Below are positions 4,022 through 47,760 of a DNA stretch of 59,954 nucleotides, in pieces. Source of the DNA: Gammaproteobacteria bacterium (GTDB taxonomy: Bacteria; Pseudomonadota; Gammaproteobacteria; S012-40); assembly GCA_919902765.1 (NCBI GenBank), contig CAKKRP010000116.1:1-59954 (forward strand), in the 5' to 3' direction. The position numbers were made by a program, and so were the translations under genes. The stretch's first letter is position 1, and every line of letters begins with the position of its first letter. The notes beneath the pieces were generated by a model that was not told where the DNA came from, searched no databases, and worked only from the letters and a program-made list of their open reading frames with translations.

Positions 4022-5251
4022 ATGCAAACTATGCTAACCAACACTGAGCAACCCATCTATTTAGATTACTCAGCCACCACCCCGATAGATCCGCGCGTGG
4101 CGGACAAGATGATTCCCTACATCACGCAACACTTCGGAAATCCGGCCAGCCGATCCCACGCCTATGGCTGGCGCGCCGACGCTGCGGTGGAAGCCGCGCG
4201 CGCCGACGTCGCTGCGCTGGTGCATGCGGATCCCAAGGAAATCGTCTGGACCTCGGGCGCCACCGAGTCGAACAATCTGGCCATCAAAGGCGCAGCGCAT
4301 TTTCACCGCAAAAAAGGCCAACATTTAATAACGGTCAAAACCGAACACAAGGCGGTGCTCGATAGTATGCGCGAGCTGGAGCGTGAAGGATTCGAGGTGA
4401 CTTATCTCGACCCCGAACCCGATGGCTTGGTCGATGCAAAAAAATTCGCTGCGGCATTGCGCGACGACACCGTGCTGGCGTCGGTGATGTACGTGAACAA
4501 CGAGATTGGAGTTATTCAAGACATCGCAACCCTTGGCGCGCTCTGTCACGCACGCGGCGCGCTGTTTCATGTCGATGCGGCGCAGGCGACCGGCAAGGTC
4601 GATATCGACCTACAACGCCTGCCTGTGGACTTGATGTCGTTCTCGGCGCACAAAACCTATGGGCCAAAAGGCATAGGCGCGCTGTATGTGCGCCGCAAAC
4701 CGCGTGCGCGTATCGAACCGCAAATGCACGGTGGCGGCCACGAACGCGGCATGCGTTCCGGCACGCTGGCGACACACCAAATTGTCGGCATGGGTGAGGC
4801 GTTTCGCATTGCACGCGACGAGATGCCATTGGAAAACGCACGCATCCGCCGCTTGCGCGACAAACTGCTCGCAGGGCTGCGTGATATCGAAGAAGTTTAT
4901 ATCAACGGCGACATGGATCAACGCGTGCCCCACAATCTCAATATCAGTTTCAACTATGTGGAAGGCGAATCGCTGATGATGGCGATGAAAGAGCTGGCGG
5001 TATCCAGCGGTTCCGCCTGCACATCGGCGAGCTTGGAACCATCGTATGTGTTACGCGCGCTGGGTCGCCCAGACGAACTGGCGCACAGTTCCATCCGTTT
5101 TACACTCGGTCGTTACACCACCGCAGGCGATATCGAATTTGCCGTGAACATCATTCGGCAGAAAATTCAGAAATTGCGCGCCTTGTCGCCGTTGTGGGAT
5201 ATGTACAAGGCCGGCGTCGATATAAACAGCGTGAAATGGGCGACGCATTAA
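4022..5251 (+). CDS. iscS: Cysteine desulfurase, IscS type, in nif operon
   Basis: A 409-residue class V aminotransferase-fold enzyme that takes sulfur from cysteine for Fe-S cluster assembly. The PLP lysine is Lys211 ([12 protein letters not shown]) and the catalytic cysteine is Cys333 in [21 protein letters not shown], each five residues later than in E. coli IscS (Lys206, Cys328). The C-terminus [22 protein letters not shown] is the IscU-docking tail of IscS rather than that of NifS. The AAGGGA ribosome site lies about 10 bases before ATG 4022. It is the first gene after the sigma-54 promoter, so this copy is probably made only under nitrogen-fixing conditions, taking the place of nifS. 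A housekeeping copy may exist elsewhere. Confidence 0.93.
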
Positions 5252-5290
5252 CCCACACACCGAGCACTCACAACCCCTAACGGAGGCTTT

Positions 5291-5728
5291 ATGTCTTATA
5301 GCGACAAAGTGATTGATCATTACGAAAACCCGCGCAACGTCGGAACCTTGAACACCGCCGACGCGGATGTCGGCACCGGCATGGTGGGCGCGCCCGCCTG
5401 CGGCGACGTCATGCGACTGCAAATCAAGGTCGGCAAAGACGGCCGCATCGACGACGCCGTATTCAAAACCTATGGTTGCGGTTCCGCGATCGCCTCCAGC
5501 TCGCTCGTCACCGAATGGGTGAAAGGCAAGACGCTGGACCAAGCGATGCTCATTAAAAACAGCGAAATTGCCGACGAATTGGCCTTGCCGCCCGTGAAGA
5601 TACACTGCTCTGTGCTGGCCGAGGACGCCATTCGCGCCGCGATTTCCGATTATCGCTCCAAACAAGAACTCGCCGACGCCGGATATGTGGCGTGCCAACC
5701 CACCACCAGCGCGATTGTCGCTGCATAA
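5291..5728 (+). CDS. iscU: Fe-S cluster scaffold IscU
   Basis: A 145-residue scaffold on which [2Fe-2S] and [4Fe-4S] clusters are built from IscS sulfur. Cluster ligands Cys37, Cys63 and Cys106 and Asp39 fall at exactly the E. coli positions, and the HscA recognition sequence LPPVK is at 99-103. A C-terminal extension of about 17 residues (ending [10 protein letters not shown]) goes beyond the usual 128 residues and includes an additional Cys135. It is not a NifU: the central ferredoxin-like and C-terminal Nfu domains are absent. GGAGG ribosome site 6 bases before ATG; 39 bases after iscS. Confidence 0.93.
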
Positions 5729-5751
5729 CGCGCCCCGCCAGGAGTAACGAC

Positions 5752-19450: not shown

Positions 19451-21457
19451 CTAAGGCGCCTCAAACGCACCCACGGCCTTACGTGCGCCGCGCGGACGCA
19501 TATCATAGTCAGATTCCACCCTGAACGAGACCGGGGCCTGCGCCTTACCAACTGCCGCACTGGACGGATTTAAATGAAAATCCGCCTTGTTCGCAGCGAC
19601 AAACTGCGGGTCCCCCAAAATAGGGGCGATGTCGTTTGCCGGTCTCGCATGCGCCAACCCATACCATAGATTGTGCTCAATCTTTACACTCGCAGGGGGC
19701 CAAGATCCCGCAATTCCATCTCGATTCAATGCGATATATTCGCTCGCCGCACCACCCGGTACGACGATATTATGTTTGATTTCTATTAACTTAGATTTTG
19801 CTAATCCCCATGAATCTTCTATCGCATCTTGGTAACTGCCGCTATGGATAGTTTTAACATTGTACAAGGTATTAAAGACAACACTGTATTCGCCTTGGGC
19901 ATCGTTTACATTGAAACGCACACCCGCCATATCCGTGTTGTAAATAATATTATCCCAAGCCGCTAAGCTGCGCGTATTATCGGCGATATTCAACCCATAA
20001 CGATGACCATCATGCATCAAATTGTGATGCACCGTGATATTGGTCAATCGACTGGAGCCGTCCGACATACCGACATTGTCATAAGTCTGAATGATATTGC
20101 CGCCCATGCAATCGTGAATGTGATTGAATGCAATCTCGATATCTTCCGAATAAGAATCGAGATATATGCAATGATTGTGTTGTGTACCATAAATATGATG
20201 AATATGATTGCCGAATATTCCGACATCCTTACCATTACCGCTGATCGCGCCGGATTTCGCCTCTAATTGCGTCTGCACACCCGCCGAATTTACCGAATAA
20301 TAAATCGTCCTATCCGCCGCCAACCATTGATACAACTCGTTATTCACTATGCGCCAATGGTTCGAATCGGTCTGCAAATTAAGCGGCCCTTCACTCGCTG
20401 TCCAATCACCGCCTTCAATGCGCAAATTCGCAATTGTAATCCAGTCGGAATAATCTTTTTGACCATTCATTCCGTGGATGCCGCCCGCAACTCGCTCCGA
20501 CTCATCGATAAGATTGTGACCATCAATCATTTTTGGAGTAACCACCGGCGGCTTTAAATGTACGTTCTCACCCGGATAGCCCATCAATGTAATCGGGCCG
20601 CTACCGGATTTGCCTGTCGGCGCGGTGCCGGTCATATTACGAAAGCGTGCGAATCTCCGATTGCACCCCAAATCCGACCACATAACATCGTTACCCTGTT
20701 TATCTTTTTTCGCGCGCAACACCAACACATCGCCAGGCCTGATCTTGTTTGGCGTCAATACCCCCGTCATCACGCCGCACCCCCCTTTCTGCACATATCG
20801 AAAGGGCTTGTGAATATTTCCTGCGACACCCGTCGCATCATCACCCGTCACATTGTCTAAATAAAAGATATTCCCGGGCTGTACGGCAAATGTATGATCT
20901 TCATTAGAGGCAACGTTATTCACTACGACCTTGATCGGTAATTTTTTACCAGGACTCGGCCGACCCAAGGCCCCCACTTGAACCGCTATACTTTGAATGT
21001 CCGAGCGGCCTCGCGCGTGACCGATCTCGCCCACATAACGCGCCACTTCTACACCATTCACATACACTTTAGTACCGGCACCCAAACCTTGAACACCAAA
21101 ATTTTTTCCGAAAATTGTCAGATACATACCAAAATTATTTTCGCCACCGGAATTCGGGCCGGATAGTACGTCGGTGTATAAAATCAGCGGTGCGTCGGGT
21201 TTCAACCCTGGCGACACGTCCTGCCACTCGGAGTGTAACAAGGGCTCGGAAGCGGACTCTGCCGATGCGCGCTCGGATAAGGATTTTGTCGCAGTGTGCA
21301 GGGGTGTGGCAACAGGGGCTTCCGCTAACGTTACATTAGACGAAATATTTTGAAATTTCTTGGCGGCGCTAGAATCTATGGAAACGCCACAACTAGAAAA
21401 AAATAGACTTGGCAAGATAATGCAAGACAACAATATTGGATAGTCATGTAAATTCAT
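19451..21457 (-). CDS. Right-handed beta-helix lipoprotein 1 (TIG-like domain)
   Basis: A 668-residue surface protein. A signal peptide with Phe-rich core ends in the lipobox S-S-C at Cys23 (next residue Gly, consistent with outer membrane sorting). Residues ~85-215 form a TIG/IPT-like beta-sandwich starting LYTDVLSGPNSGGENNFGMY and ending NNVASNEDHTFAVQPGN. Residues ~218-655 form a parallel beta-helix with Asn-rich turns (IFGNHIHHIYGTQHNH, IEIAFNHIHDCMGG). It ends RPRGARKAVGAFEAP. It shares both domains with the genes at 25270 and 28166 but has no PKD/Ig modules. Beta-helix proteins bind, cleave or epimerise polysaccharide; the action here is not known. The first frame codon is GTG 21460; ATG 21457 is more likely. 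Confidence 0.8.
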   Translation of the reverse strand: MNLHDYPILLSCIILPSLFFSSCGVSIDSSAAKKFQNISSNVTLAEAPVATPLHTATKSLSERASAESASEPLLHSEWQDVSPGLKPDAPLILYTDVLSGPNSGGENNFGMYLTIFGKNFGVQGLGAGTKVYVNGVEVARYVGEIGHARGRSDIQSIAVQVGALGRPSPGKKLPIKVVVNNVASNEDHTFAVQPGNIFYLDNVTGDDATGVAGNIHKPFRYVQKGGCGVMTGVLTPNKIRPGDVLVLRAKKDKQGNDVMWSDLGCNRRFARFRNMTGTAPTGKSGSGPITLMGYPGENVHLKPPVVTPKMIDGHNLIDESERVAGGIHGMNGQKDYSDWITIANLRIEGGDWTASEGPLNLQTDSNHWRIVNNELYQWLAADRTIYYSVNSAGVQTQLEAKSGAISGNGKDVGIFGNHIHHIYGTQHNHCIYLDSYSEDIEIAFNHIHDCMGGNIIQTYDNVGMSDGSSRLTNITVHHNLMHDGHRYGLNIADNTRSLAAWDNIIYNTDMAGVRFNVNDAQGEYSVVFNTLYNVKTIHSGSYQDAIEDSWGLAKSKLIEIKHNIVVPGGAASEYIALNRDGIAGSWPPASVKIEHNLWYGLAHARPANDIAPILGDPQFVAANKADFHLNPSSAAVGKAQAPVSFRVESDYDMRPRGARKAVGAFEAP

Positions 21458-21460
21458 CAC

Positions 21461-21783: not shown

Positions 21784-23271
21784 ATGCCACAACATGATTC
21801 ACAAGCCCCCCTACCCCAATCCCCCAACATGCACTGGGCATGGTTGCCGGGGTTATATGCGTTATTTTTCGCCATCAATCTTTTGACCTCGGCGCAATAC
21901 CCGGTCGTCTGGATAGATGAAGTCATGTTCGTCGATCCTGCGATCAACCTCTACCTAGGCGATGGCTTCACTTCTACGGCGTGGCCGTATCAGGATCTAG
22001 ATCGATTTTTCGCAGGTTATCCGCCTTTATATTCGTTGCTTTTGACGGCGTGGATATATATCACGGCAATAGACCCAGTAAGTTTGCGTGCCATGAATTA
22101 CTTGCTGATCATAGCCGCGACCGTTGCGATACTGAGCGCCGCCGCGCGTAAACGTTGGATAATTCGCGGCAATTACCGTGTATTATTGGCCTTGCTCATC
22201 CTCACCTGCTATAGCATCAGCATGAGTTACCGCAGCGATAGGCCAGACACATTGATGCTTTTAATGGCAGCCGGTCTGTTTTTAACGGCCACACTGAAAA
22301 CGCAAGCCACACGCACGGTCTTAATGTTCACACTGGCCGCGCTCTTTCCATTCGTCGGCTTGCAATTGGTCATGTACACAGGGCTGACCACACTGCTCGT
22401 GCTTACCTACGTACGCAAAGAATTTTTAAAAGATTTTTTTCTGATCAACGGGGGCATGTTTATAGGCCTATTGGCTATGTTGGCGATATATGCCAAGATC
22501 GGAGTGCTCTCTGATTTTATAAATGCAATGCAAGGCGGATCTACAACGGGATTTATACAGGGATTGATGCAAGGCCACTTTGATCATCAAAATGCGCTAC
22601 CCAAGGATCTCAGCTTTCTGCTGCTTTTTCCAACTTCAATCCTAACCTTCATGGCGTTGCGCCAACGCGGTAACTACCCCCACAAGCCGTTGCTCTCCTA
22701 CTCTCTGGTAGCCTCAATTGTTATCCCTGCGGCGTTGATTATTCTCGGCAAATTTCCGACTTATTACAGTTGGATGATATATGTCCCATTGTCTATTGCG
22801 GTGGTCGCCGTCATTTCGGAGACAAAAAGTCGTATTCACGCGCTGATCTTGAGCATGCTCACCGCCACCTGCCTGGTCGGGCTTCCATTTCAACTGCTCA
22901 TGATTTCCTATGATTGGGCGGATCGTTCGCACGATGCCATCGTGAATGCGGTACACAAAAATATTTCAGCGTCGGACTGGGCGCTCACCGACTATGGGGC
23001 ATATTTTGCTGTGAAAACCACGGCCAAACGTACCTATAGCCCACACTACACGCCGCGCCTGACGGCGCAAGAGAAAGACTCCATCACTGTTATCATCGCT
23101 GCTGACGAATTTGTTAAAAAAGCAACCGGCGCCATTGGGGGAAAATGGTATATCGCCGACGCAATCAAGCCTCAACACGCCTCACTTACCGAACGGCTAC
23201 TAGGGGTTCCGATTCGATTTGGAATGTTCGATAGAAAATATGAACTAAAGATATATCGGCGTGAAAAATAA
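21784..23271 (+). CDS. Polytopic GT-C type glycosyltransferase (GT39/ArnT-like)
   Basis: A 495-residue membrane protein with about ten hydrophobic segments between residues ~15 and 385 and a soluble C-terminal region (~390-495). The first external loop contains VWIDEVMFVDPAINLY, the acidic Asp-Glu pair typical of the catalytic loop in GT-C enzymes, followed by FAGYPPLYSLLLTAWI. GT-C enzymes take sugars from polyprenyl-phosphate carriers on the outer face. The gene begins a plus-strand group with prenyltransferase, phosphatase and flippase, all consistent with making such a donor. No strong ribosome site. Confidence 0.65.
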   Translation: MPQHDSQAPLPQSPNMHWAWLPGLYALFFAINLLTSAQYPVVWIDEVMFVDPAINLYLGDGFTSTAWPYQDLDRFFAGYPPLYSLLLTAWIYITAIDPVSLRAMNYLLIIAATVAILSAAARKRWIIRGNYRVLLALLILTCYSISMSYRSDRPDTLMLLMAAGLFLTATLKTQATRTVLMFTLAALFPFVGLQLVMYTGLTTLLVLTYVRKEFLKDFFLINGGMFIGLLAMLAIYAKIGVLSDFINAMQGGSTTGFIQGLMQGHFDHQNALPKDLSFLLLFPTSILTFMALRQRGNYPHKPLLSYSLVASIVIPAALIILGKFPTYYSWMIYVPLSIAVVAVISETKSRIHALILSMLTATCLVGLPFQLLMISYDWADRSHDAIVNAVHKNISASDWALTDYGAYFAVKTTAKRTYSPHYTPRLTAQEKDSITVIIAADEFVKKATGAIGGKWYIADAIKPQHASLTERLLGVPIRFGMFDRKYELKIYRREK

Positions 23272-23306
23272 TTGATATTCACTCGCACCATGAGGTCAAC
23301 ATAGTT

Positions 23307-24194
23307 ATGCAAGCAAAAAATATATTTCTCGATATTTTATATACCATACGACCGAAACATTGGGTAAAAAATTTCTTCGTATTTGCGCCGCTGTTTTTTT
23401 CCGGCAACGCCGGTATTGTAGACGTGTTTATCGCAAGCTTGACAATATTTTTCGCGTTTTGCTTAATTTCGAGCAGCGTATATATTTTGAACGATATCTC
23501 CGATCATGACAGAGATCGCGCGCACCCGACCAAGAAAAATAGACCGATTGCGGCGGGAAGGCTCAGCGTGCCGGCGGCCGCATTCATTGCCGTCGCACTT
23601 GCCGCCGCCGCGCTCTTTATCGCGATGCGATTGAACATATGGGCGGCAGGTGTGTTACTGGCCTACGGCGTCATCAATATCGCGTATAGCACCTATCTAA
23701 AACATGTCGTGATCGTCGATGTGTTTTGCATCTCATTGGGTTTTGTATTACGAGTGGTGGGCGGCGGCTTAGCTATCGCCGTCACACCTTCTTCATGGTT
23801 GATTACTGCAACATTTCTATTATCTCTTTTTCTCGCCCTCGCGAAACGTCGCCACGAACTTGTGTTGCTGGAAGGAAAATCGGAAAATCATCGCCCGGTG
23901 TTGAACGACTATTCCGCCCGCCTGGTGGACGAATTGATTTCAGTCGTAACGCCTTTGACGCTGATTTCATACTTACTATACACTTTAGAACCCGCAACCA
24001 TCGCGCGATTCAACGCCCCTAACATCTACTTCACAGGCGGCTTGGTCACGTTTGGTATATTCCGGTATTTATATTTGATCCACAAACAAAACCTCGGCGG
24101 CTCCCCCACTGACCTGGTATTCCAAGACGTACCGTTATTGGTCGCTATCGTGTCATGGGTCTTATCGTTCGGCGCGATTATTTACCTGCGATGA
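23307..24194 (+). CDS. UbiA-type prenyltransferase, decaprenyl-phosphate phosphoribosyltransferase-like
   Basis: A 295-residue membrane enzyme with ~8-9 TM segments. The first Asp-rich motif is N62-D-x2-D66-x3-D70 continuing HPTKKNRPIAAGRL, which matches the DPPR synthase branch of UbiA (mycobacterial Rv3806c type), where phosphoribosyl is moved from PRPP to a polyprenyl phosphate. A second region, YSARLVDELISVV (~205), fits the conserved later motif. A quinone or haem pathway is less likely, as no such genes surround it. GAGGTC lies upstream of ATG 23307. Its stop overlaps the start of the HAD gene (ATGA). Confidence 0.75.
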   Translation: MQAKNIFLDILYTIRPKHWVKNFFVFAPLFFSGNAGIVDVFIASLTIFFAFCLISSSVYILNDISDHDRDRAHPTKKNRPIAAGRLSVPAAAFIAVALAAAALFIAMRLNIWAAGVLLAYGVINIAYSTYLKHVVIVDVFCISLGFVLRVVGGGLAIAVTPSSWLITATFLLSLFLALAKRRHELVLLEGKSENHRPVLNDYSARLVDELISVVTPLTLISYLLYTLEPATIARFNAPNIYFTGGLVTFGIFRYLYLIHKQNLGGSPTDLVFQDVPLLVAIVSWVLSFGAIIYLR

Positions 24195-24847
24195 GTTCTC
24201 CTGGCAATCTTGTCATTTTCGATCTGGATGGTACGCTGACCGCGCGGGATACATTCATCCCGTTTTTGCTTAGTTTTTATAAACGGCGACCTGCGCCATT
24301 GATGCGCATTCTTTTGTTAGGCGTACCTATACTACAGTTTGCACTAAAAAGAATTGACAATGCCACACTGAAACAGAAATTTCTGAGCGCCTTTACCAAG
24401 GGTGCCAGCCGCACACAAATTGACCAACACGCGCGATTATTTGTTAAACATCTAATGGCAACGGGCTTGCGGCCGGCCGCGCTTTCGACTTTGCAAACGC
24501 ATATCCAAAATGGCGATTTAGTAGTTTTACTATCCGCCAGTTTTGATTTCTATGTGCCCTATATCGCACAACAATTGAAAATCCACGAAACGATATGCAC
24601 GCAAGCGGAGTGGCGGGATGACTGTCTAACCGGAAGGTTGGCGAGCCCTAACTGCCATGGTCAGCGTAAAGTTGAATTACTAGCAGCGCTTCAACAACGC
24701 CATCAGGGGCGCAAAGTAATCGCTTACGCGGATAATATCTCCGACATCCCGTTGCTCTTACTAGCGGACGACGGATTTCTTATCAGCCATTCATCTCGGG
24801 CCATTGCCAAGGCACGGCAATTGGGATTATCAATTCTGCATTGGTGA
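24191..24847 (+). CDS. HAD-IB family phosphatase
   Basis: A 218-residue HAD hydrolase with motif I FDLDGTLTARD (nucleophile Asp11, acid/base Asp13), a motif II Ser near residue 118 (LLSASFDFYV), and the Asp-x3-Asp motif AYADNISDIPLLLLAD (~179-194). This is the HAD-IB fold, phosphoserine phosphatase-like. In the context of a phosphoribosyl-prenyltransferase it may remove the 5-phosphate from a polyprenyl-phosphate-ribose intermediate. ATG 24191 overlaps the UbiA stop, so the two are coupled; an upstream in-frame ATG at 24155 lies inside the UbiA gene. Confidence 0.75.
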   Translation: MSSPGNLVIFDLDGTLTARDTFIPFLLSFYKRRPAPLMRILLLGVPILQFALKRIDNATLKQKFLSAFTKGASRTQIDQHARLFVKHLMATGLRPAALSTLQTHIQNGDLVVLLSASFDFYVPYIAQQLKIHETICTQAEWRDDCLTGRLASPNCHGQRKVELLAALQQRHQGRKVIAYADNISDIPLLLLADDGFLISHSSRAIAKARQLGLSILHW

Positions 24848-24856
24848 GCGTTACTT

Positions 24857-25225
24857 ATGATACTTTTTATGCAAATTCTCGTTAGCATCTCGTTGTCCGC
24901 AGTGGCGCAAATGACATTAAAAGTCGGTATGTCGGATGCAACCATACAACAATTGCTGGCGCAAAAAGACTACCCTAATGCGCTGCTTGCCGTGTTCACG
25001 AACTGGCCCGTATTATTAGGTTTATTTCTATACGGCGTAGGGACTATCATCTGGTTGTTGGTATTGGCCAAAGCCGATCTCAGCTATGCCTACCCTTTTG
25101 TCAGCCTAGGGTTTATTATCACCTTGGCGCTCGGGTTTTTTGTGTTGCATGAATCAGTCACATTGACGCGTCTGGCAGGAACGTTATTAGTCATGCTGGG
25201 CGTCTTTATGATTTCCCGCACTTAG
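24857..25225 (+). CDS. Small EamA/SMR-type transporter (four TM)
   Basis: A 122-residue protein with four predicted TM helices: residues ~2-20 (LFMQILVSISLSAVAQMTLK), ~50-68, ~75-95 (SYAYPFVSLGFIITLALGFF) and ~102-119. This resembles the small multidrug resistance/EamA families, including the ArnE/ArnF subunits that flip undecaprenyl-phosphate aminoarabinose. A lipid-linked sugar flippase role fits the neighbours. ATG 24857 lies 9 bases after the HAD stop. Confidence 0.7.
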   Translation: MILFMQILVSISLSAVAQMTLKVGMSDATIQQLLAQKDYPNALLAVFTNWPVLLGLFLYGVGTIIWLLVLAKADLSYAYPFVSLGFIITLALGFFVLHESVTLTRLAGTLLVMLGVFMISRT

Positions 25226-25269: not shown

Positions 25270-27774
25270 TCACTGCGCGGCAATTGCACCTAAATCCAGG
25301 GTTCCTGTCCTGGGTCGCAATAGAAAATCGTTAGCGGGCGTGTACGCGCCTGCGCGCCCAACACCCCGCGCCAGACTTTTGCTGCCGATGCGCAAATCTT
25401 CACTGCCTCTATTTATGTTAGAAAAAAGCGGATCGCCTAAGACGCCGCTAATATCTTTCGAGGGGACGGGGACAGCGGCATTCGCTAAACCGAACCACAA
25501 ATTATTGTCCAAACGAACGCCAATATCCGCGCCAGGACTGTTATAATTGACGTAATAATGTTTAGCGGTGGACGCCGTGTAGACAATATTATTTTCGATA
25601 TATACTCTATTTGTGGACGAGGTCACCACTTCAGAATGTACTGCGCCATAGTTTTCACCATTACCTATACCGACATTCAAAAAGCTATTGTAGGCGATGA
25701 TCATGTTATCAAACGCATTTGACGCTAGGCGTAACCCCGGTTGCTGTGAATTCATGATGGTGTTGTTATAAATCGCTCCGTTCACCGTAACCATCGCAAC
25801 GTTAAGTCCATATTTTGCGGTAGCGTCGATCACGTTGTGATGCATATTGATTTTGCGCAAATAGCAATCTGGCCACCCGCAAATAGATCCGGTATTACCA
25901 TAAAATTGCACACCCGATCCACCACGAATATTTTTGATCGAATTATATGCGATCTCCAGATCATCGACATAATTATCGAAATACATGCCATGATTAATTA
26001 AAGATTCATTCACAGTTGCAGTCGGTTGCGTAAGGCCTTCAACATCGTGGATATTATTACCAAAGATTTTAGCATAACGAAACGCGCCGGTAATTCCCGC
26101 CGCTTTTTGTAATTTTTCTCCAATCTTGACGCTCATTTCATTATTCACCACGCGCCAATATTCACCAGATTTTTGACTATTTATAGGCCCATCGCCGCGA
26201 TCCGCATCACTCACCAGTGGCGTCCTGTCATTGTCTTCAATTGTAAATCCGGAAATCACAACATAGTGAGTATTCGCATAATATTGGGAACCTGGACCGC
26301 TAAATCCGCCCTTATGATTACCATTGGCGATTGACAACTGCACCGTCGCAGTTTCCCCAGGATAGACTTGAAAGGTTAAATAACCATTGTCAACTTTTCC
26401 ATTTGGCGCGGTACCATTTAGTTGACGTGGAATGCCTACAAAATGCTGATCGATTCCAGCGTCGCTCCATATGCCACCGCGCACCACGATCACATCACCA
26501 GGACCAAACCGTGCCCACGCCGGATTGGGTGCGCGTGGGGTAGCAAACACCGTGCTATTTTGGATCATTCGATAAGGCTTATCATAGGAGCCATCACCCG
26601 TAGCGTCCGACCCAATGGGCGAAACAAAAATAATGTCGCCTGGTTGATGGGTGAAAGTCACATCCGTATTGGAACTTGCCCCATTTACCACCACTTTAAT
26701 CGCCCCCACGGCACCTGCGGCTAGACCACCTAAGGCACCGACCTGTATACCGATCTGTTGGACATTCACACCATAGCGCCCAAATGCCTGCGCCTTGGCA
26801 TCGCCGAGAAACTTGTACGCAGCAACCTCGACATTATCGACATAGACACGGGTATTCGCACCCAAACCACCGGCGGTGCCGAAATTAAGCCCGAAAATAT
26901 TCAAATATGCCCCGTTATTATTTTCACCACCGGAGGTTGGGCCGGCCACCACGTCGGTGAACAAAACTGTGGGGTTGGCACTACAATCCGGTAAGCAAGC
27001 GCGCGGGGTGTTAACAATGACTGTCAGCGTATCTACTGCGCTGGCGCCGCCATTGTCGGTCACCGTAACGCGAAAACTCAAGGCCTCGGGCGTGGTCACC
27101 CCTGGCGCAACAAAGGCCAGATCGGCCCCGGACGCTCCTTGCAGGGTAACATTCGTCCCGCTGAGCTGTTGCCATTGATATGACACAATATTGCCGTCAG
27201 GGTCACTTGCCGTTGCATGTATATTCACTGGCGAGCCGACAACCACAGACAAATCCATACCTGCGCTAACGATGGGGGAGTTATTTACCACCGGCGGAGT
27301 GACGGGGGGGGGCGCAACCGATGGATTAACAGTAACGGTAACGGTGTCCGCCCCTGTCGCGCCTTTATCATCGGTGACTGTAAAACGAAATGAAATTCGA
27401 GTGAGCGTACTCGTGGTTGGCGCATTAAACTGTAACTGTTCGCGGTCGGCGCCTAGCGACGTAATACTTGGCCCCCGGGTTTGCTCCCACAAATAGCGAA
27501 CCACCGCCCCGTCTGTATCGGTACCCCGCCCAGCCACAGTCACTAAAGACCCAGAATCCACGGAAAAATTTGACCCCGCACTCGCCTCAGGCGCAACATT
27601 CGGCGTCGGCAGTTGCGGCTGTGTATCGGTTGGAGGAGTCGATGCTATAGAGGGTTTTGCAATATCGTCGCTAGGCATTTGCACTTGGCAGGCAGCCGCC
27701 ATGCACGCCAACAAGGTGGCCAACCAAGCGTTGGCACTGGGCGTTGATGATGTTTTTAAAGCTACATTATGCAT
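25270..27774 (-). CDS. Right-handed beta-helix lipoprotein 2 with two PKD domains
   Basis: An 834-residue protein with a lipoprotein-type signal (Cys24 or Cys29). Two PKD/Ig-like domains follow (~57-150 and ~163-258, each with the SxGTDxDGxxxxYxWxQ pattern), then a TIG-like block starting LFTDVVAGPTSGGENNNGAY (~265-395) and a long beta-helix (~400-820) with repeated NNxxNAxxG turns, for example IAYNSIKNIRGGSGVQFYGN. The end, RPRTGTLDLGAIAAQ, resembles the closures of other surface beta-helix proteins. PKD domains are adhesive or spacer modules. The first frame codon is GTG 27777; ATG 27774 follows GGAG and AGG sequences. Confidence 0.8.
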   Translation of the reverse strand: MHNVALKTSSTPSANAWLATLLACMAAACQVQMPSDDIAKPSIASTPPTDTQPQLPTPNVAPEASAGSNFSVDSGSLVTVAGRGTDTDGAVVRYLWEQTRGPSITSLGADREQLQFNAPTTSTLTRISFRFTVTDDKGATGADTVTVTVNPSVAPPPVTPPVVNNSPIVSAGMDLSVVVGSPVNIHATASDPDGNIVSYQWQQLSGTNVTLQGASGADLAFVAPGVTTPEALSFRVTVTDNGGASAVDTLTVIVNTPRACLPDCSANPTVLFTDVVAGPTSGGENNNGAYLNIFGLNFGTAGGLGANTRVYVDNVEVAAYKFLGDAKAQAFGRYGVNVQQIGIQVGALGGLAAGAVGAIKVVVNGASSNTDVTFTHQPGDIIFVSPIGSDATGDGSYDKPYRMIQNSTVFATPRAPNPAWARFGPGDVIVVRGGIWSDAGIDQHFVGIPRQLNGTAPNGKVDNGYLTFQVYPGETATVQLSIANGNHKGGFSGPGSQYYANTHYVVISGFTIEDNDRTPLVSDADRGDGPINSQKSGEYWRVVNNEMSVKIGEKLQKAAGITGAFRYAKIFGNNIHDVEGLTQPTATVNESLINHGMYFDNYVDDLEIAYNSIKNIRGGSGVQFYGNTGSICGWPDCYLRKINMHHNVIDATAKYGLNVAMVTVNGAIYNNTIMNSQQPGLRLASNAFDNMIIAYNSFLNVGIGNGENYGAVHSEVVTSSTNRVYIENNIVYTASTAKHYYVNYNSPGADIGVRLDNNLWFGLANAAVPVPSKDISGVLGDPLFSNINRGSEDLRIGSKSLARGVGRAGAYTPANDFLLRPRTGTLDLGAIAAQ

Positions 27775-28083
27775 CACCTATCACTCCGTATACGATATCG
27801 CGCATTGCATCCATTATGAATAGATCCTTAAACTGGGCCAACTCCAACTTCTCTACCCAGACTTAGGCCGGACAGTAAATATAAAGGAATTGCGCAAATT
27901 TTCCAAATAATATTCAATAGCGCCTGATTATTAAGGAAAAATGACGCTATGCATAAACAAATATGTCGGGCCTTTGCAACATAATCCAAAAAATGCCGTC
28001 GTGCATCGACTACAGTATTTTTTAAAAATTTAGCGTGCCGCCCCGCAAACACGAAAATGACGGATTTGTTACGCATAATAAAA
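27775..28083. promoter_or_regulatory. Gap between beta-helix genes 2 and 3
   Basis: No gene is supported. An 82-codon minus-strand frame (27828-28076) has no ribosome site and begins just past a terminator. The gap probably holds the promoter of beta-helix gene 2, but no strong boxes are seen. Confidence 0.3.
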
Positions 28084-28165: not shown

Positions 28166-30862
28166 TCAATGTACCTCATAAGCCCCAATATCAAAGATAC
28201 CGGTGCGCACATTAAGCAACATATCATTGACCGGCGTATACACACCTGCAACACCCATATTGTACGCAGGACTTGCGATGTCGATACGCAAATCTTCGCT
28301 GCCAGTGACGACGCTCAGATACTTCGGATCGCCGAATATACCACCTACGTCCTTGCTAGGTGCTTTGGTGACTTTACCAAACCACAGGTTATTTTTCATG
28401 CTGATACCCGCATCCGACCCGGCGCCATTGTAATATGCATAATAACTACTAGAAGGCGATGTCGGCGACATGGAGAATATATTATTTTCGACATACACCG
28501 TATCGGGCGCGACCACAGTGCCATCGACAAATACGGCACCATAACTTTGCCCGTAAGCGACATCGAAAAAGCTGTTATGCGCAACCTTCAAGTTGCTAAA
28601 TTGATCGGAGCCTAAGCGTATGCCCGCCAATTTAGTGTGCATTACGATATTGTCGTAGATGTTACCGCCTGCGGTGACAATCCCCATATTCAGGCCATAT
28701 TTGCCGGAAACATTGGCAACGACATTATGATGCACATTTAGGCCGTCAAGGGTACACGCGGGATAACCGCAAACGGACCCCAAGTTTCCGAAGAATTGCA
28801 GTCCGCTACCACCGGGCACATTCTTGACGTTGTTATACGCCACTTCAACGTTAGACGTATAATTGTCAAAATACATTCCATGGTTAACCAATATCTCCGG
28901 ACTGGCCGTCGTCGCTACCGTGATGCCTTGTACGTCATGGATATAATTGCCCAATATCGCGGTATCGCGGAAACCTCCGGAAATAGCCCCGGCCTTTTGC
29001 GACACTTCACCGATTTTGATGCTCATCTCGTTATTGACGATACGCCAATGATCACCCGAGGTTTGCGCGTTAAACGGGCCACCGGCCCCAATATTGGAAG
29101 GCTTAGTGGCGTCGTCGTCATGCACCGTAAACCCGGAAAAAACAAAGTAATGAGAATTGACATAATACGTGCTGGAAGGCCCGCTAAACGCCCCTTTTTG
29201 ATTGCCCAATGCATAGGATAAATTGATCACCGCATCTTCGCCGGGATAGGCTTGGAATGCGACATAACCATTGCCGGCCACACCATTGGGTGCAGTTGGG
29301 TTCAAGTCTTGACGTATGCGCACAAACCGATTGTCCCAACCTACATCAGACCAACTACCGCCGCGCATTACGATGGTATCGCCGGGACCTAAGGCGACCC
29401 ACGCAGGATTTGTACGCGTGGTGTTTTGAACATAGCGATAGGGCTTCGCAAACGAACCGTTGCCTGTCGTATCGTCGCCGGTCAATGACACATAGATCAT
29501 GTCACCCGGTTGATTCATAAAGCTAAGATCGGTATTTGACGCGACATTTCCTACCACTACCTTGATCGCGCCTGACACTCCGGGCGTTAAACCACCTAAT
29601 GCCCCGACCTGTACGGCGAGTTGCTGCACAATCATGCCATAGGAGGCAAAGGGTTGCGCCTTGGCGTTACCTAGATATTTGTACGCCGCGACTTCGACAT
29701 TATTGATATATACTTTGGTGCTCGTGCCCAAACCTGAGGCAGCGCCTAAATTGGTGCCGAAAATATTCAAGTACGCACCATTATTGTTTTCGCCGCCCGA
29801 CGTAGGCCCTGCCACAAGATCGGTATAGAGTACGCTTGGAGACACACAAGCGGTACACACGGCCAATGAAAACGCGCCGAGTTGCGCAGTCGCCATACCG
29901 CTATCGGACACCGTGATCACGATATTATCGGTGGAACCGATATCCGACACGCTAGGCGTACCCCAAAGTTTACCGGTGGCCTGATCGAAACTCGTCCATG
30001 CGGGTTTGCCGCTGATCGAGAAACTCAATGCATCGCCATCGGAATCCATTGCATCCGGCGTGAAGGCATAGCTTTGATCTTGCAGAACGATCTTAAGCGA
30101 TGTGCCGGAAATAGTCGGCGCACGATTCACATTGGTGACCGTGACAGAAAACGGACCTATCGCCGCAGAATCTTTGCCGTCGAAAACACTAATGGAAATA
30201 GCAGGATATACGCCAGCATTCGAATATGACGGCGTGCCGGTAAGCGCTCCCGTCAACGGATCGAATGTCGCCCAACTCGGCTTGTTAGCGATAGAGAAAA
30301 CTAGCATATCGTTGAGATCGGCGTCACTCGCCGAGGGTAAGAAACCGTATGCCGTATTTTCTGCAATCGATACCAATGGAGTACCGCTAATCGTCGGCAC
30401 ACTATTGCTACTGACCACCGGTGTCGGCGTCGGTGTTACCGCGACTACTACAGGAATAACCGTGACATCGACAACATCGGATTGTATATAATCGTCGTTA
30501 TCCGTTACTTTAAGCTCAAACGACAACATTTCTTGCTGTGTCACTGATGGCGCGACGAACGCCAATATCGGCGAAGCCGCATCCACCATGGTGACGCTAG
30601 CCCCCGCCAATTGCGCCCAATGATAACGTTTAATAAACCCGTCTTGATCGGTGCCCTTACCAATTATTGTAACCGCTTCTAACGCTGTAACACTGCGATC
30701 GGCACCTGCATCTGCGACAGGCAGCGTAGCAGTGTTATTTTTTTTAATGGTCACATTAATGGTTGGCGACGGCATACCACAACCCGCCAACGCCAAACTC
30801 AAAACCCAAACACTGGATAACCTCTTTCCGAATTTCCTATTATTTAATATCTTGATACCCAT
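28166..30862 (-). CDS. Right-handed beta-helix lipoprotein 3 with PKD and Ig-like modules
   Basis: An 898-residue protein with lipobox L-A-G-C at Cys28. It carries one PKD-like domain (~45-135), two cadherin-like/He-PIG modules (~155-245 and ~246-340, each ISGTxxxxxxxxxYxFxPxAxDxD... then GTPSxSxxG), the TIG-like block from LYTDLVAGPTSGGENNNGAY (~345-475), then the beta-helix (~480-890). It ends NVRTGIFDIGAYEVH. Over the TIG and helix parts it is closely similar to the gene at 25270. AAGGGG lies 7 bases before ATG 30862 but 1 base before the alternative ATG 30868, which supports 30862; the frame is open to 31021 but that extension would bury the signal peptide. Confidence 0.82.
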   Translation of the reverse strand: MGIKILNNRKFGKRLSSVWVLSLALAGCGMPSPTINVTIKKNNTATLPVADAGADRSVTALEAVTIIGKGTDQDGFIKRYHWAQLAGASVTMVDAASPILAFVAPSVTQQEMLSFELKVTDNDDYIQSDVVDVTVIPVVVAVTPTPTPVVSSNSVPTISGTPLVSIAENTAYGFLPSASDADLNDMLVFSIANKPSWATFDPLTGALTGTPSYSNAGVYPAISISVFDGKDSAAIGPFSVTVTNVNRAPTISGTSLKIVLQDQSYAFTPDAMDSDGDALSFSISGKPAWTSFDQATGKLWGTPSVSDIGSTDNIVITVSDSGMATAQLGAFSLAVCTACVSPSVLYTDLVAGPTSGGENNNGAYLNIFGTNLGAASGLGTSTKVYINNVEVAAYKYLGNAKAQPFASYGMIVQQLAVQVGALGGLTPGVSGAIKVVVGNVASNTDLSFMNQPGDMIYVSLTGDDTTGNGSFAKPYRYVQNTTRTNPAWVALGPGDTIVMRGGSWSDVGWDNRFVRIRQDLNPTAPNGVAGNGYVAFQAYPGEDAVINLSYALGNQKGAFSGPSSTYYVNSHYFVFSGFTVHDDDATKPSNIGAGGPFNAQTSGDHWRIVNNEMSIKIGEVSQKAGAISGGFRDTAILGNYIHDVQGITVATTASPEILVNHGMYFDNYTSNVEVAYNNVKNVPGGSGLQFFGNLGSVCGYPACTLDGLNVHHNVVANVSGKYGLNMGIVTAGGNIYDNIVMHTKLAGIRLGSDQFSNLKVAHNSFFDVAYGQSYGAVFVDGTVVAPDTVYVENNIFSMSPTSPSSSYYAYYNGAGSDAGISMKNNLWFGKVTKAPSKDVGGIFGDPKYLSVVTGSEDLRIDIASPAYNMGVAGVYTPVNDMLLNVRTGIFDIGAYEVH

Positions 30863-31608
30863 AAACATGCCCCTTAATAAAGTAACTGACCCGTGCTTGT
30901 AACGGACTATCCAGGTCGTGCATCCCTTGGTGGGGTCACATACGCAATGCGACTTCCCTCGCAAAAGGCGAAATTGGCATCGAATCTCGCAACGGAGCAT
31001 CAACATGATAATAGACTGCATTTTTTGTATGGTATAAAAACATATACCACACTTTATTAAAGTTTTAAATCACCAAGCAACCACCGGAGCGCAACTTCAT
31101 ACAAGTTCTTAAAAAAGACTGTCTCTTTTTTGAGACAGATTTTTACTAAAAACTCTCGCATGAAAACACATCCACTTCACGTCGTGACGCTGATCGAAGT
31201 GTCCACATGCACACCAATTTATTACCACCCAAGACAATTCCAATTAAATATCGCGTTGCAAAAATTGATCACACTACGCGCGCTCCACTTGAGAATATTC
31301 CCGCTATGCCTTTTGCCCGCACTGTACGCCCGAACCAGGCGCATATGCGATATCGCCAAGCACTACACGAGTTATCGGATAAATATTCATTGGGAACAGA
31401 GTCGCATTTTTACGACAGCGAAGTGGATGTGCCTTGAAATGCAAATTACCACGCGGGATGCGTGTTATTGGCAATAATGACATGCCAACCACATTCGTTT
31501 ACGAATGCAGTTTGAATCAAGATTGGGGGTAGACTAATTTACGAAAACATATTTTGCACTATAACTTTAATTTGCTTTCGCGTTATCGCAAATTGCTATT
31601 AATCGCCT
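30863..31608. promoter_or_regulatory. Long gap with hairpins between beta-helix gene 3 and acyltransferase
   Basis: No gene can be firmly supported. A 76-codon plus-strand frame (31207-31437, MHTNLLPPKTIPIKYRVAKI...) has natural-looking composition but no good ribosome site or known relatives. A 115-codon overlapping frame looks like chance. Inverted repeats CATTCG-TTTA-CGAATG (31492-31507) and AATTTGC/GCAAATT (31569-31594) may mark the end of the acyltransferase transcript. Confidence 0.3.
31119..31138. terminator. Bidirectional terminator-like hairpin
   Basis: CTGTCTC (31119-31125) and GAGACAG (31132-31138) form a 7-bp stem with a T6 loop. ATTTTT follows on the plus strand and TCTTTTTT on the minus strand, so it could end transcripts in both directions. 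A transcript through the gap upstream of beta-helix gene 3 would be the one stopped. Confidence 0.5.
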
Positions 31609-35455: not shown

Positions 35456-36889
35456 CTAAGCGATTTCGATCTCTAGCGACGCGGAACACGGCCCCAACAC
35501 ATACCGCAAACATCCGCCTTCAATGTCTTGTTCGCGAATCAGTTGTGCGCCTCGCGTAACTTTAATTCGCGCTTGACGCATGGTAATTTCGAGATCGCCT
35601 TCCTCCACGCCTGTTAATTCCAAGCGACCTCCCGCGTCTTGCCATACTACACCACTGAAGCGCCCGTTCACCCCGGCTAACCTGCCTGCGGCCAACACAA
35701 CATTCGTTTTCTCAGCTTGGGCCGTTATCCCTATACCCGAAATATTCAGGTACCCCTTATCAACGCCATGCAATTGGTGCGGCAACGAACAATGATAAAA
35801 ATTATGCGCGTAGGGCGCTAAACGAAAATCGCGAAACTGTGAGGGATCGCCATCTTTCCCAGCCTCTGCGGCCATGCAAATATTATAGGCCTCGCGCGCC
35901 GTGGCATAATGTAAACGGTAACGCTTGCCGTCATTGTAGACCTCGTTCAACATCTTATGCATCGCACGCGCGCGTTGTCCAAACAATGCGTCAAAATCTT
36001 TTTCGACCGCGCCATGCGCGTGCAATTTGACGAACACCCATTCCGGCCTATCTTGAACGTGTATATGACTATTCAACCACGCTTGTATTCTATCGGGCCT
36101 GCCCCAGTTACCCGTAGTAACGCTTGCATTTTCTATGCGTGGATAGCGAGGCGCGCGCAAATTAATCCCCAACGGGCCTTGCATCATAAAAAAGCTGTTT
36201 TCCGGGGCTTTTTTTCCTACTTTAAGGTCAACGCCCGTATCGTGGGATTTCCGCGCCAGAGGGGCGTCCACTGCGTAATAGATCGAATTGATTTTTTTCG
36301 TCTGGCACTCATTGGACGACGGCATCGTAAAATCGCCCCAGCAGCCGAACTCCTGCAATAAGGTAATTTCATTATCGACACCACAATAGCGTCCCCTCGG
36401 ATGTGAATTGTCAAGCGCCCAATCGCCATGAATAAATGAAAATGCGGTGTGTGGCTTTTCGCCGCTGGTAAGTAAAATTCCACGGCGTTGATAATCCGCA
36501 ATCACGCCGGTCATCAAGCGACGGAAACTCGCGTCGTTGTCGTTGTCATGATGCAAATGTAATTCTATTTCGCCACACCCCGCGAGCACCAGGCGATTCA
36601 GCGCCGCAAGATGTTCTATCCCGTGATGCGGCGGATAAAACCACGTGTGACGTGGTCCGTGTCCGTATTTATTTATACACTCTTTGAAAAACGCCAGATA
36701 ATCACGTTCCCAACGGCTGACACGTTCCACCTCTTGACCCGGATTTTCCGCTTTATGTCTAGGTTCATAGTGATCACACATCAAAAATACAATGTGCGTA
36801 GTTTTATCACGCAACGCGCGTCTACTTCGCGCGCGTCTTGACAAGTCGCGCAAATAACTCCACGCCCAATAATTAAGCCCGCCTTTCAT
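35456..36889 (-). CDS. Polysaccharide deacetylase-like protein of unknown function
   Basis: A 477-residue protein without a signal peptide. The N-terminal part looks like the barrel of NodB-type carbohydrate esterases: THIVFLMCDHYEPRH (Asp39, His40) would correspond to the metal-binding DD region and GEIELHLHHDNDNDAS (~105-120) to the second region; FVKLHAHGA near residue 285 gives further histidines. The C-terminal ~90 residues are beta-rich. It lacks the usual TFDDG motif, so enzymatic identity is unproven. The gene lies between a GT2 and a GT4 gene in the same operon, pointing to polysaccharide synthesis or modification. Confidence 0.55.
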   Translation of the reverse strand: MKGGLNYWAWSYLRDLSRRARSRRALRDKTTHIVFLMCDHYEPRHKAENPGQEVERVSRWERDYLAFFKECINKYGHGPRHTWFYPPHHGIEHLAALNRLVLAGCGEIELHLHHDNDNDASFRRLMTGVIADYQRRGILLTSGEKPHTAFSFIHGDWALDNSHPRGRYCGVDNEITLLQEFGCWGDFTMPSSNECQTKKINSIYYAVDAPLARKSHDTGVDLKVGKKAPENSFFMMQGPLGINLRAPRYPRIENASVTTGNWGRPDRIQAWLNSHIHVQDRPEWVFVKLHAHGAVEKDFDALFGQRARAMHKMLNEVYNDGKRYRLHYATAREAYNICMAAEAGKDGDPSQFRDFRLAPYAHNFYHCSLPHQLHGVDKGYLNISGIGITAQAEKTNVVLAAGRLAGVNGRFSGVVWQDAGGRLELTGVEEGDLEITMRQARIKVTRGAQLIREQDIEGGCLRYVLGPCSASLEIEIA

Positions 36890-46770: not shown

Positions 46771-47760
46771 CTAGTGAGGAATCTGTACGGGTTCGACCAA
46801 TACGCCCGGTCTGTGCAGATACGCGGTGGTGCGCCGTTTAGCGATAATATCCTGATATACGTGTTCCGCTTGCATATCGCTTATCCCTAACATTACGGCC
46901 AATTCGTCCGCGCGCCGGCCGTTATTCAACGCCCACAGGGCGACATCCATCTCATGATAAGGCAACGCATAATAGAACTCATCCTGCCCTTGCGCCAAAC
47001 TATAGGTATCGGTGGTGGGAGTGGCGTTCACTATGGATTCCGGCAATCCAAAATATCTCGCCATATCATATACATGGGTCTTATAAAGATGGGCGATGGG
47101 TTTAACGTCCGCCGCACCATCGCCGTTCTTAACGAAAAAACCTTGATCATATTCCACACGATTGGGCGTACCCACCACGGCGTAGTTCAAACGATCCGCA
47201 TGAAAATACTCAACGGTCTTACGTATCCGTTGCTTATAATTTGTCGCCGCCACAATTTGCAAATATTCCTTCAACGCGAGCGTTTTTTCTTGCAATTCTC
47301 CCGCCTCGGTCTGCACCACCAATTTGAAGTGGTTGTAGCGGCCCTCCAAGCCGCCTGCGATGACTATTTTATATTTCCATGCCGGTTTGTAATCCGGGAA
47401 CGTCGCGCGTACCGCCTCATCGCGCCAGCGATAACAACCTATCGCCTCTAACGTAGGCGCAATATCGTGGACTTCGTATTCTATGCCAAGGTGTTCGGCC
47501 AATAGTTTAGCCTGTGTTGCGCTGGCGCCGGAAGAATCCCGCTCGGGTAATAAGAGGCCGTAAACTTTATCGGCCCCTAAGGCCTTGACCGCCAATGCCG
47601 CACTCACCGAGCTGTCTATACCACCCGACATCGCGACGACCGCGCCTCTGCGGCGCAATTCGCGCCCGACGATTTCTCTAAATCGAGTCGCTATTTTTTC
47701 AGCCTCTAACGCCAAATCCAGCGTAAAAAATTGATTGATATTGACCTTTTTTCCGCTCAT
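46771..47760 (-). CDS. NAD(+) synthase-like ATP-pyrophosphatase
   Basis: A 329-residue N-type ATP-pyrophosphatase close to ammonia-dependent NadE. The PP-loop SGGIDSSVSAAL is at 45-56; GLLLPERDSSGAS and the later VVGTPNRVEYDQGFFVKNGDGAADVKPIAHLYKT region (two adjoining motif stretches around ~195-230) match NadE. There is no glutaminase domain. It is placed between an AMP-ligase gene and a GNAT-like gene with ATGA overlap, and so is more likely to amidate a carboxyl group of a sugar or acyl intermediate than to serve housekeeping NAD synthesis, though the latter is not excluded. Confidence 0.75.
   Translation of the reverse strand: MSGKKVNINQFFTLDLALEAEKIATRFREIVGRELRRRGAVVAMSGGIDSSVSAALAVKALGADKVYGLLLPERDSSGASATQAKLLAEHLGIEYEVHDIAPTLEAIGCYRWRDEAVRATFPDYKPAWKYKIVIAGGLEGRYNHFKLVVQTEAGELQEKTLALKEYLQIVAATNYKQRIRKTVEYFHADRLNYAVVGTPNRVEYDQGFFVKNGDGAADVKPIAHLYKTHVYDMARYFGLPESIVNATPTTDTYSLAQGQDEFYYALPYHEMDVALWALNNGRRADELAVMLGISDMQAEHVYQDIIAKRRTTAYLHRPGVLVEPVQIPH

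Follow-up and report, generated by a model that had tools for sequence, protein, structure and literature searches.

A predicted lipid-linked pentofuranose-addition operon in a gammaproteobacterium with an exosortase-A-type exopolysaccharide cluster

The window analysed here is a stretch of 59,954 nt of gammaproteobacterial DNA, and its ORF calls include a tight set of four same-strand genes at 21784–25225 (+). The earlier note had placed here a four-gene module that could make and use a polyprenyl-phosphate pentose, and all four ORFs are present at that place and on that strand:

21784..23271, + strand: polytopic membrane protein (495 aa), probable GT-C glycosyltransferase with a presumed role in the transfer step, as judged by topology, loop motif and position
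23307..24194, + strand: putative UbiA-family polyprenyl-phosphate phosphoribosyltransferase (PPPRS/DPPRS; 295 aa), with matches to NF008977, PF01040 and PDB 8j8j
24191..24847, + strand: HAD-IB phosphatase (218 aa; PF12710, TIGR01490), presumed to remove the 5'-phosphate from polyprenyl-phospho-ribose-5-phosphate
24857..25225, + strand: 4-TM SMR/EamA (ArnE/ArnF-like) protein (122 aa; PF00892, PF10639), presumed lipid-linked sugar flippase

Successive genes are separated by 35 nt, -4 nt and 9 nt, and the arrangement is therefore operon-like, with opposite-strand genes bordering it on either side. The HAD start codon (ATG at 24191) shares 4 nt with the stop codon of the UbiA gene, and an alternative start at 24155 would yield a 230-residue protein. 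No promoter or terminator signals at the operon exceed the shuffled-sequence background.

The second gene is strongly indicated to encode a polyprenyl-phosphate phosphoribosyltransferase. Its product scores 262.4 bits against NF008977 (decaprenyl-phosphate phosphoribosyltransferase; curated equivalog cut-off 234), the sole model above its cut-off among the 20 NCBIfam models that match, and 97 bits against PF01040; structures of Rv3806c are its sole strong PDB relatives (8j8j, E 2.4e-32; 8j8k, E 2e-22). The phosphoribosyltransferase pattern described earlier is borne out by the presence of the NDISDHDRDRAHPTKKNRPIAAG motif, with N62-D63-D66-D70 (NDxxDxxxD) and H73-P74-T75-K76 (HPxK) in loop II, and R181/E184 (RxxE) in loop IV. 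By motif, N62, D63, D66, D70, R181 and E184 correspond to N247, D248, D251, D255, R366 and E369 of Citrobacter ORF15, in which mutagenesis found the N/D residues to be the most important and R/E mutants still active (PMC11127046). Among 82 phosphoribosyltransferase-like sequences (a set that takes in the window protein and Rv3806c), about nine tenths have HPxK after NDxxDxxxD. HPxK in this position is missing from all 11 of the UbiA-family homologues that match weakly in related genomes, which are assigned to the quinone/haem type by inference rather than by individual annotation; six of these 11 have NDxxDxxxD without HPxK. As far as these sequences can tell, the HPxK-bearing motif NDISDHDRDRAHPTKKNRPIAAG is diagnostic for phosphoribosyltransferases, serving for some nine tenths of the relatives.

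The two downstream genes have recognizable families. The HAD protein matches PF12710 (115 bits) and TIGR01490 (128 bits, cut-off 98.3), and its four HAD-IB motifs (DLDGT, LLSAS, K and YADNISD) are complete by eye; together with the 4-nt overlap this upholds the proposal of a HAD phosphatase coupled to the UbiA gene. The 4-TM protein exceeds the cut-offs of both PF00892 (EamA) and PF10639 (TMEM234). Its match to the ArnF model is 52.8 bits, under the cut-off of 99, and ArnE is likewise under its cut-off, so that the ArnE/F-like label given to it previously holds as a nearest type for this 122-aa EamA/SMR protein. A PDB search with the SMR protein gave no match, and a relative of it lies immediately after a HAD-UbiA fusion in genome G046 (locus L044), with others close to UbiA genes in clostridia.

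We consider it very probable that this operon encodes a system for adding pentofuranose outside the cytoplasm, like the one proven in Citrobacter youngae O1. The UbiA enzyme would load phosphoribose onto a membrane lipid, a step for which homology to proven enzymes is strong evidence; the HAD enzyme, as its complete active site and its coupling to UbiA indicate, would then take off the 5'-phosphate. From family and context, the small 4-TM protein would flip the polyprenyl-phosphate ribofuranose to the periplasm, where the large GT-C-type membrane protein may attach ribofuranose to a glycan or protein of the cell surface. The core of this order, which the earlier note had set out as attachment, dephosphorylation, flipping and transfer, is backed by homology and by the proven Citrobacter precedent. 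The same pathway logic was demonstrated in C. youngae O1 by Kelly et al. 2024 (PMC11127046), who call it widespread and describe comparable systems in numerous bacteria whose glycans are unknown. There ORF15, a HAD-UbiA fusion, uses PRPP to form farnesyl-phosphate ribose in vitro, ORF14 is the presumed ArnE/EmrE-like flippase, ORF12 is a GT-C enzyme and the founder of GT136, and the final sugar is set by epimerases (PMC11127046).

Both loci contain a UbiA-family PPPRS, a HAD phosphatase and a presumed EmrE/ArnE-like 4-TM flippase, and both lack DprE1/E2 and an adjoining epimerase; the GT-C enzyme of Citrobacter has a probable counterpart in the 495-aa membrane protein. Of the features of the system described by Kelly et al. 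2024, the locus has a HAD phosphatase with the PPPRS (unfused, and with a predicted substrate) and a presumed 4-TM flippase. The HAD enzyme, however, is encoded by its own gene here and is fused within ORF15 there, the membrane protein has 495 residues whereas ORF12 has about 650 and a carbohydrate-binding domain, and this operon lies outside any O-antigen cluster. The pathway type is already known; what is new in the window is the unfused HAD gene and the orphan first gene.

The closest precedent is this Citrobacter three-component system and not the mycobacterial arabinan pathway to which the earlier note had pointed. The first enzyme is homologous to Rv3806c and the reaction order is that of the mycobacterial decaprenyl-phosphate arabinose pathway (Rv3806c, Rv3807c, DprE1/E2, Rv3789, Emb/Aft), but the phosphatase here is of the HAD rather than the Rv3807c type, the DprE1 and DprE2 that mycobacterial arabinofuranose requires were not found in this 95%-complete genome, and the cell surface genes are of Gram-negative type, which makes undecaprenyl phosphate the carrier to be expected. 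UbiA-dependent lipid-linked pentofuranose for a GT-C enzyme is also shared with Pseudomonas paraeruginosa PA7/Pa5196 (PSPA7_6245-6251, TfpW), although D-Araf is placed on pilin there and the window has no epimerase pair and no pilin among its annotated genes. Lactococcus cremoris plasmid pF27D (NZ_CP068515.2) has, in an exopolysaccharide region, the same series: a polytopic membrane protein comes first, then a decaprenyl-phosphate phosphoribosyltransferase, a HAD-IB phosphatase and a small flippase. The 12.9 kb that was read there likewise lacks DprE genes, but the flippase is annotated as GtrA and the UbiA protein is only 34% identical. Partial versions are seen in G046 (a HAD-UbiA fusion with SMR and PMT_2-like membrane proteins), in clostridia (UbiA, a membrane protein and SMR), and on a Legionella plasmid (UbiA and a GT39-annotated protein).

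The 495-aa product of the first gene has many predicted membrane helices and a C-terminal soluble tail of about 100 aa (a topology taken partly from a low-confidence model), and the first loop of this protein, after TM1, reads WIDE-VMFVDPA...GYPPLYS (D45/E46). This DE...PP layout is common to PMT_2/ArnT-type GT-C proteins, including the PMT_2-type proteins at loci L038, L136 and L138, with which hhalign gives a collinear alignment over residues 11–189 that covers both motifs (E 0.0014, probability 17%; the control with UbiA gave E 0.41). At none of the thresholds used does it match a Pfam, NCBIfam or PDB entry. Searches of 369 genomes from its class and 398 from its phylum (partly overlapping samples, about 765 genomes together) and of plasmids turned up no convincing homologue, at most fragments at E ~0.001-0.01. 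Structure predictions were unusable, with a pLDDT of 40 for the protein alone and 36.5 with three distant GT-C-like proteins. The upstream GT-C assignment made earlier fits the polytopic topology and the motif, but its sequence support is weak and no family match accompanies it. The orphan status and the uninformative predictions would suit a membrane protein of another kind, with the GT-C partner encoded elsewhere; we regard this as unlikely given the DE...GYPPLY sequence after TM1, the weak collinear alignment to PMT_2-type proteins, the location of the gene in the same operon as UbiA, and the PMT_2-like or GT39-annotated proteins that adjoin UbiA at L038, at L044 and on the Legionella plasmid. 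Topology, loop motif and position make the 495-aa protein a probable GT-C glycosyltransferase, and it may represent a new GT-C family.

Family-by-family searches identified no DprE1/DprE2 relatives in the 95%-complete genome, so that an absence first claimed from the window holds genome-wide as far as assembled, and no oxidase with an ALO domain (PF04030) is present in the assembly. The single match to a DprE1 query (G000:C122) was rejected as a candidate; it is a GlcD-like protein with 26% identity over ~144 residues and no ALO domain. Queries with DprE2 matched only generic, distant SDRs (24–25% identity). Because DprE1/DprE2 were not found, the sugar is likely to be ribofuranose rather than arabinofuranose, with polyprenyl-phosphate ribofuranose the default product; the suggestion that ribose itself is added stands in this sense, but an SDR epimerase encoded elsewhere in the genome could convert ribose to xylose. 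With the genome 95% complete, a DprE pair or a GalE-like SDR epimerase (compare Citrobacter ORF13) may possibly have been missed. The same operon could then end in xylofuranose or arabinofuranose, a remote epimerase converting polyprenyl-phosphate ribose prior to flipping, and both the use of such epimerization by Citrobacter O2 and mycobacteria (via ORF13 or DprE1/E2) and the distant SDRs in this genome are compatible with it. We think it improbable, as no DprE1-type oxidase was found in the genome, and epimerase genes adjoin UbiA in Citrobacter O2 and in related genomes (DprE1/E2-type genes in G026, G004, G025 and G028, at loci L038, L039, L045 and L046), whereas none lies beside this operon. 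The prediction of ribofuranose, which follows from the missing DprE1/E2, is one that a simple composition test can check.

The surroundings offer two types of possible acceptor. An exosortase-A-type (XrtA/PEP-CTERM) exopolysaccharide cluster occupies 34259–59685 (-), 9 kb from the operon, and encodes an export protein, chain-length determinant, tyrosine kinase, deacetylase, amidotransferase, ligase and initiating transferase; the sole exosortase found in the genome lies outside the window, on contig G000:C101. Its exopolysaccharide is a candidate acceptor. The cluster also contains a PRK00876-subfamily NAD(+) synthase (46771–47760, -), whose neighbours are an acyl-CoA ligase on one side and a weakly GNAT-like protein on the other, and a 477-aa ORF (35456–36889, -) with no Pfam or NCBIfam match. 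Closer by, three related long secreted/lipoprotein-like genes flank the operon on the other strand (19451–21460, 25270–27777 and 28166–31021, all -), their products sharing a lipobox-like cysteine near the start, a GPxSGGENNxGxYLxIFGxNxG stretch and a repeat-rich C-terminal half. Two of the three have Ig/PKD-type domains; the first (19451–21460) has no Pfam match. It is a speculative and rather doubtful proposal that the first gene represents a hitherto undescribed lipid-linked ribofuranosyl transferase family acting on the exosortase-A-type exopolysaccharide or on the neighbouring lipoproteins, either of which would, if so, be an acceptor so far undescribed for such ribose systems. The locus adds a further example of the pathway, here in a bacterium whose genome carries an exosortase-A-type exopolysaccharide cluster.

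That the UbiA protein is an ordinary quinone/haem prenyltransferase with unrelated neighbours is very improbable: the protein is a member of the UbiA fold family, and an AU test does not reject a quinone/haem grouping (p 0.115, in a test limited by very long branches), but the 4-hydroxybenzoate/UbiA and haem O synthase models give just 33–39 bits against 262 for the phosphoribosyltransferase model, the genome has one further UbiA-family protein (PF01040, 231 bits) that is presumably its quinone enzyme, the HPTK motif is present, and HAD and flippase-like genes are coupled to the UbiA gene. On the model scores a quinone/haem identity was dropped, in agreement with the earlier note, and the phylogeny that it had called for places the protein among phosphoribosyltransferase-like proteins, other UbiA enzymes lying on branches of 6–9 changes per site, but leaves the alternative grouping unrejected. 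Relatives of the predicted phosphoribosyltransferase are spread over many phyla and 79 plasmids. Among 56 genomes searched as relatives, matches better than E 1e-20 occur in only a minority, which includes the genome of the window, and the trait is therefore patchy.

A relative with 36% identity is also encoded at 4874–5740 of the phage-collection contig MT837543.1 (human faeces), in agreement with the phage-encoded UbiA phosphoribosyltransferase mentioned in PMC11127046. At seven Ignavibacteria/Bacteroidota/Chlorobiota loci (L059, L065, L082, L090, L093, L100 and L128), none with HAD, SMR or DprE genes immediately adjoining, the UbiA relative is preceded by a conserved soluble protein of ~550–575 aa, and at most of these loci a ~407–417-aa protein with 3–4 predicted TMs comes after it.
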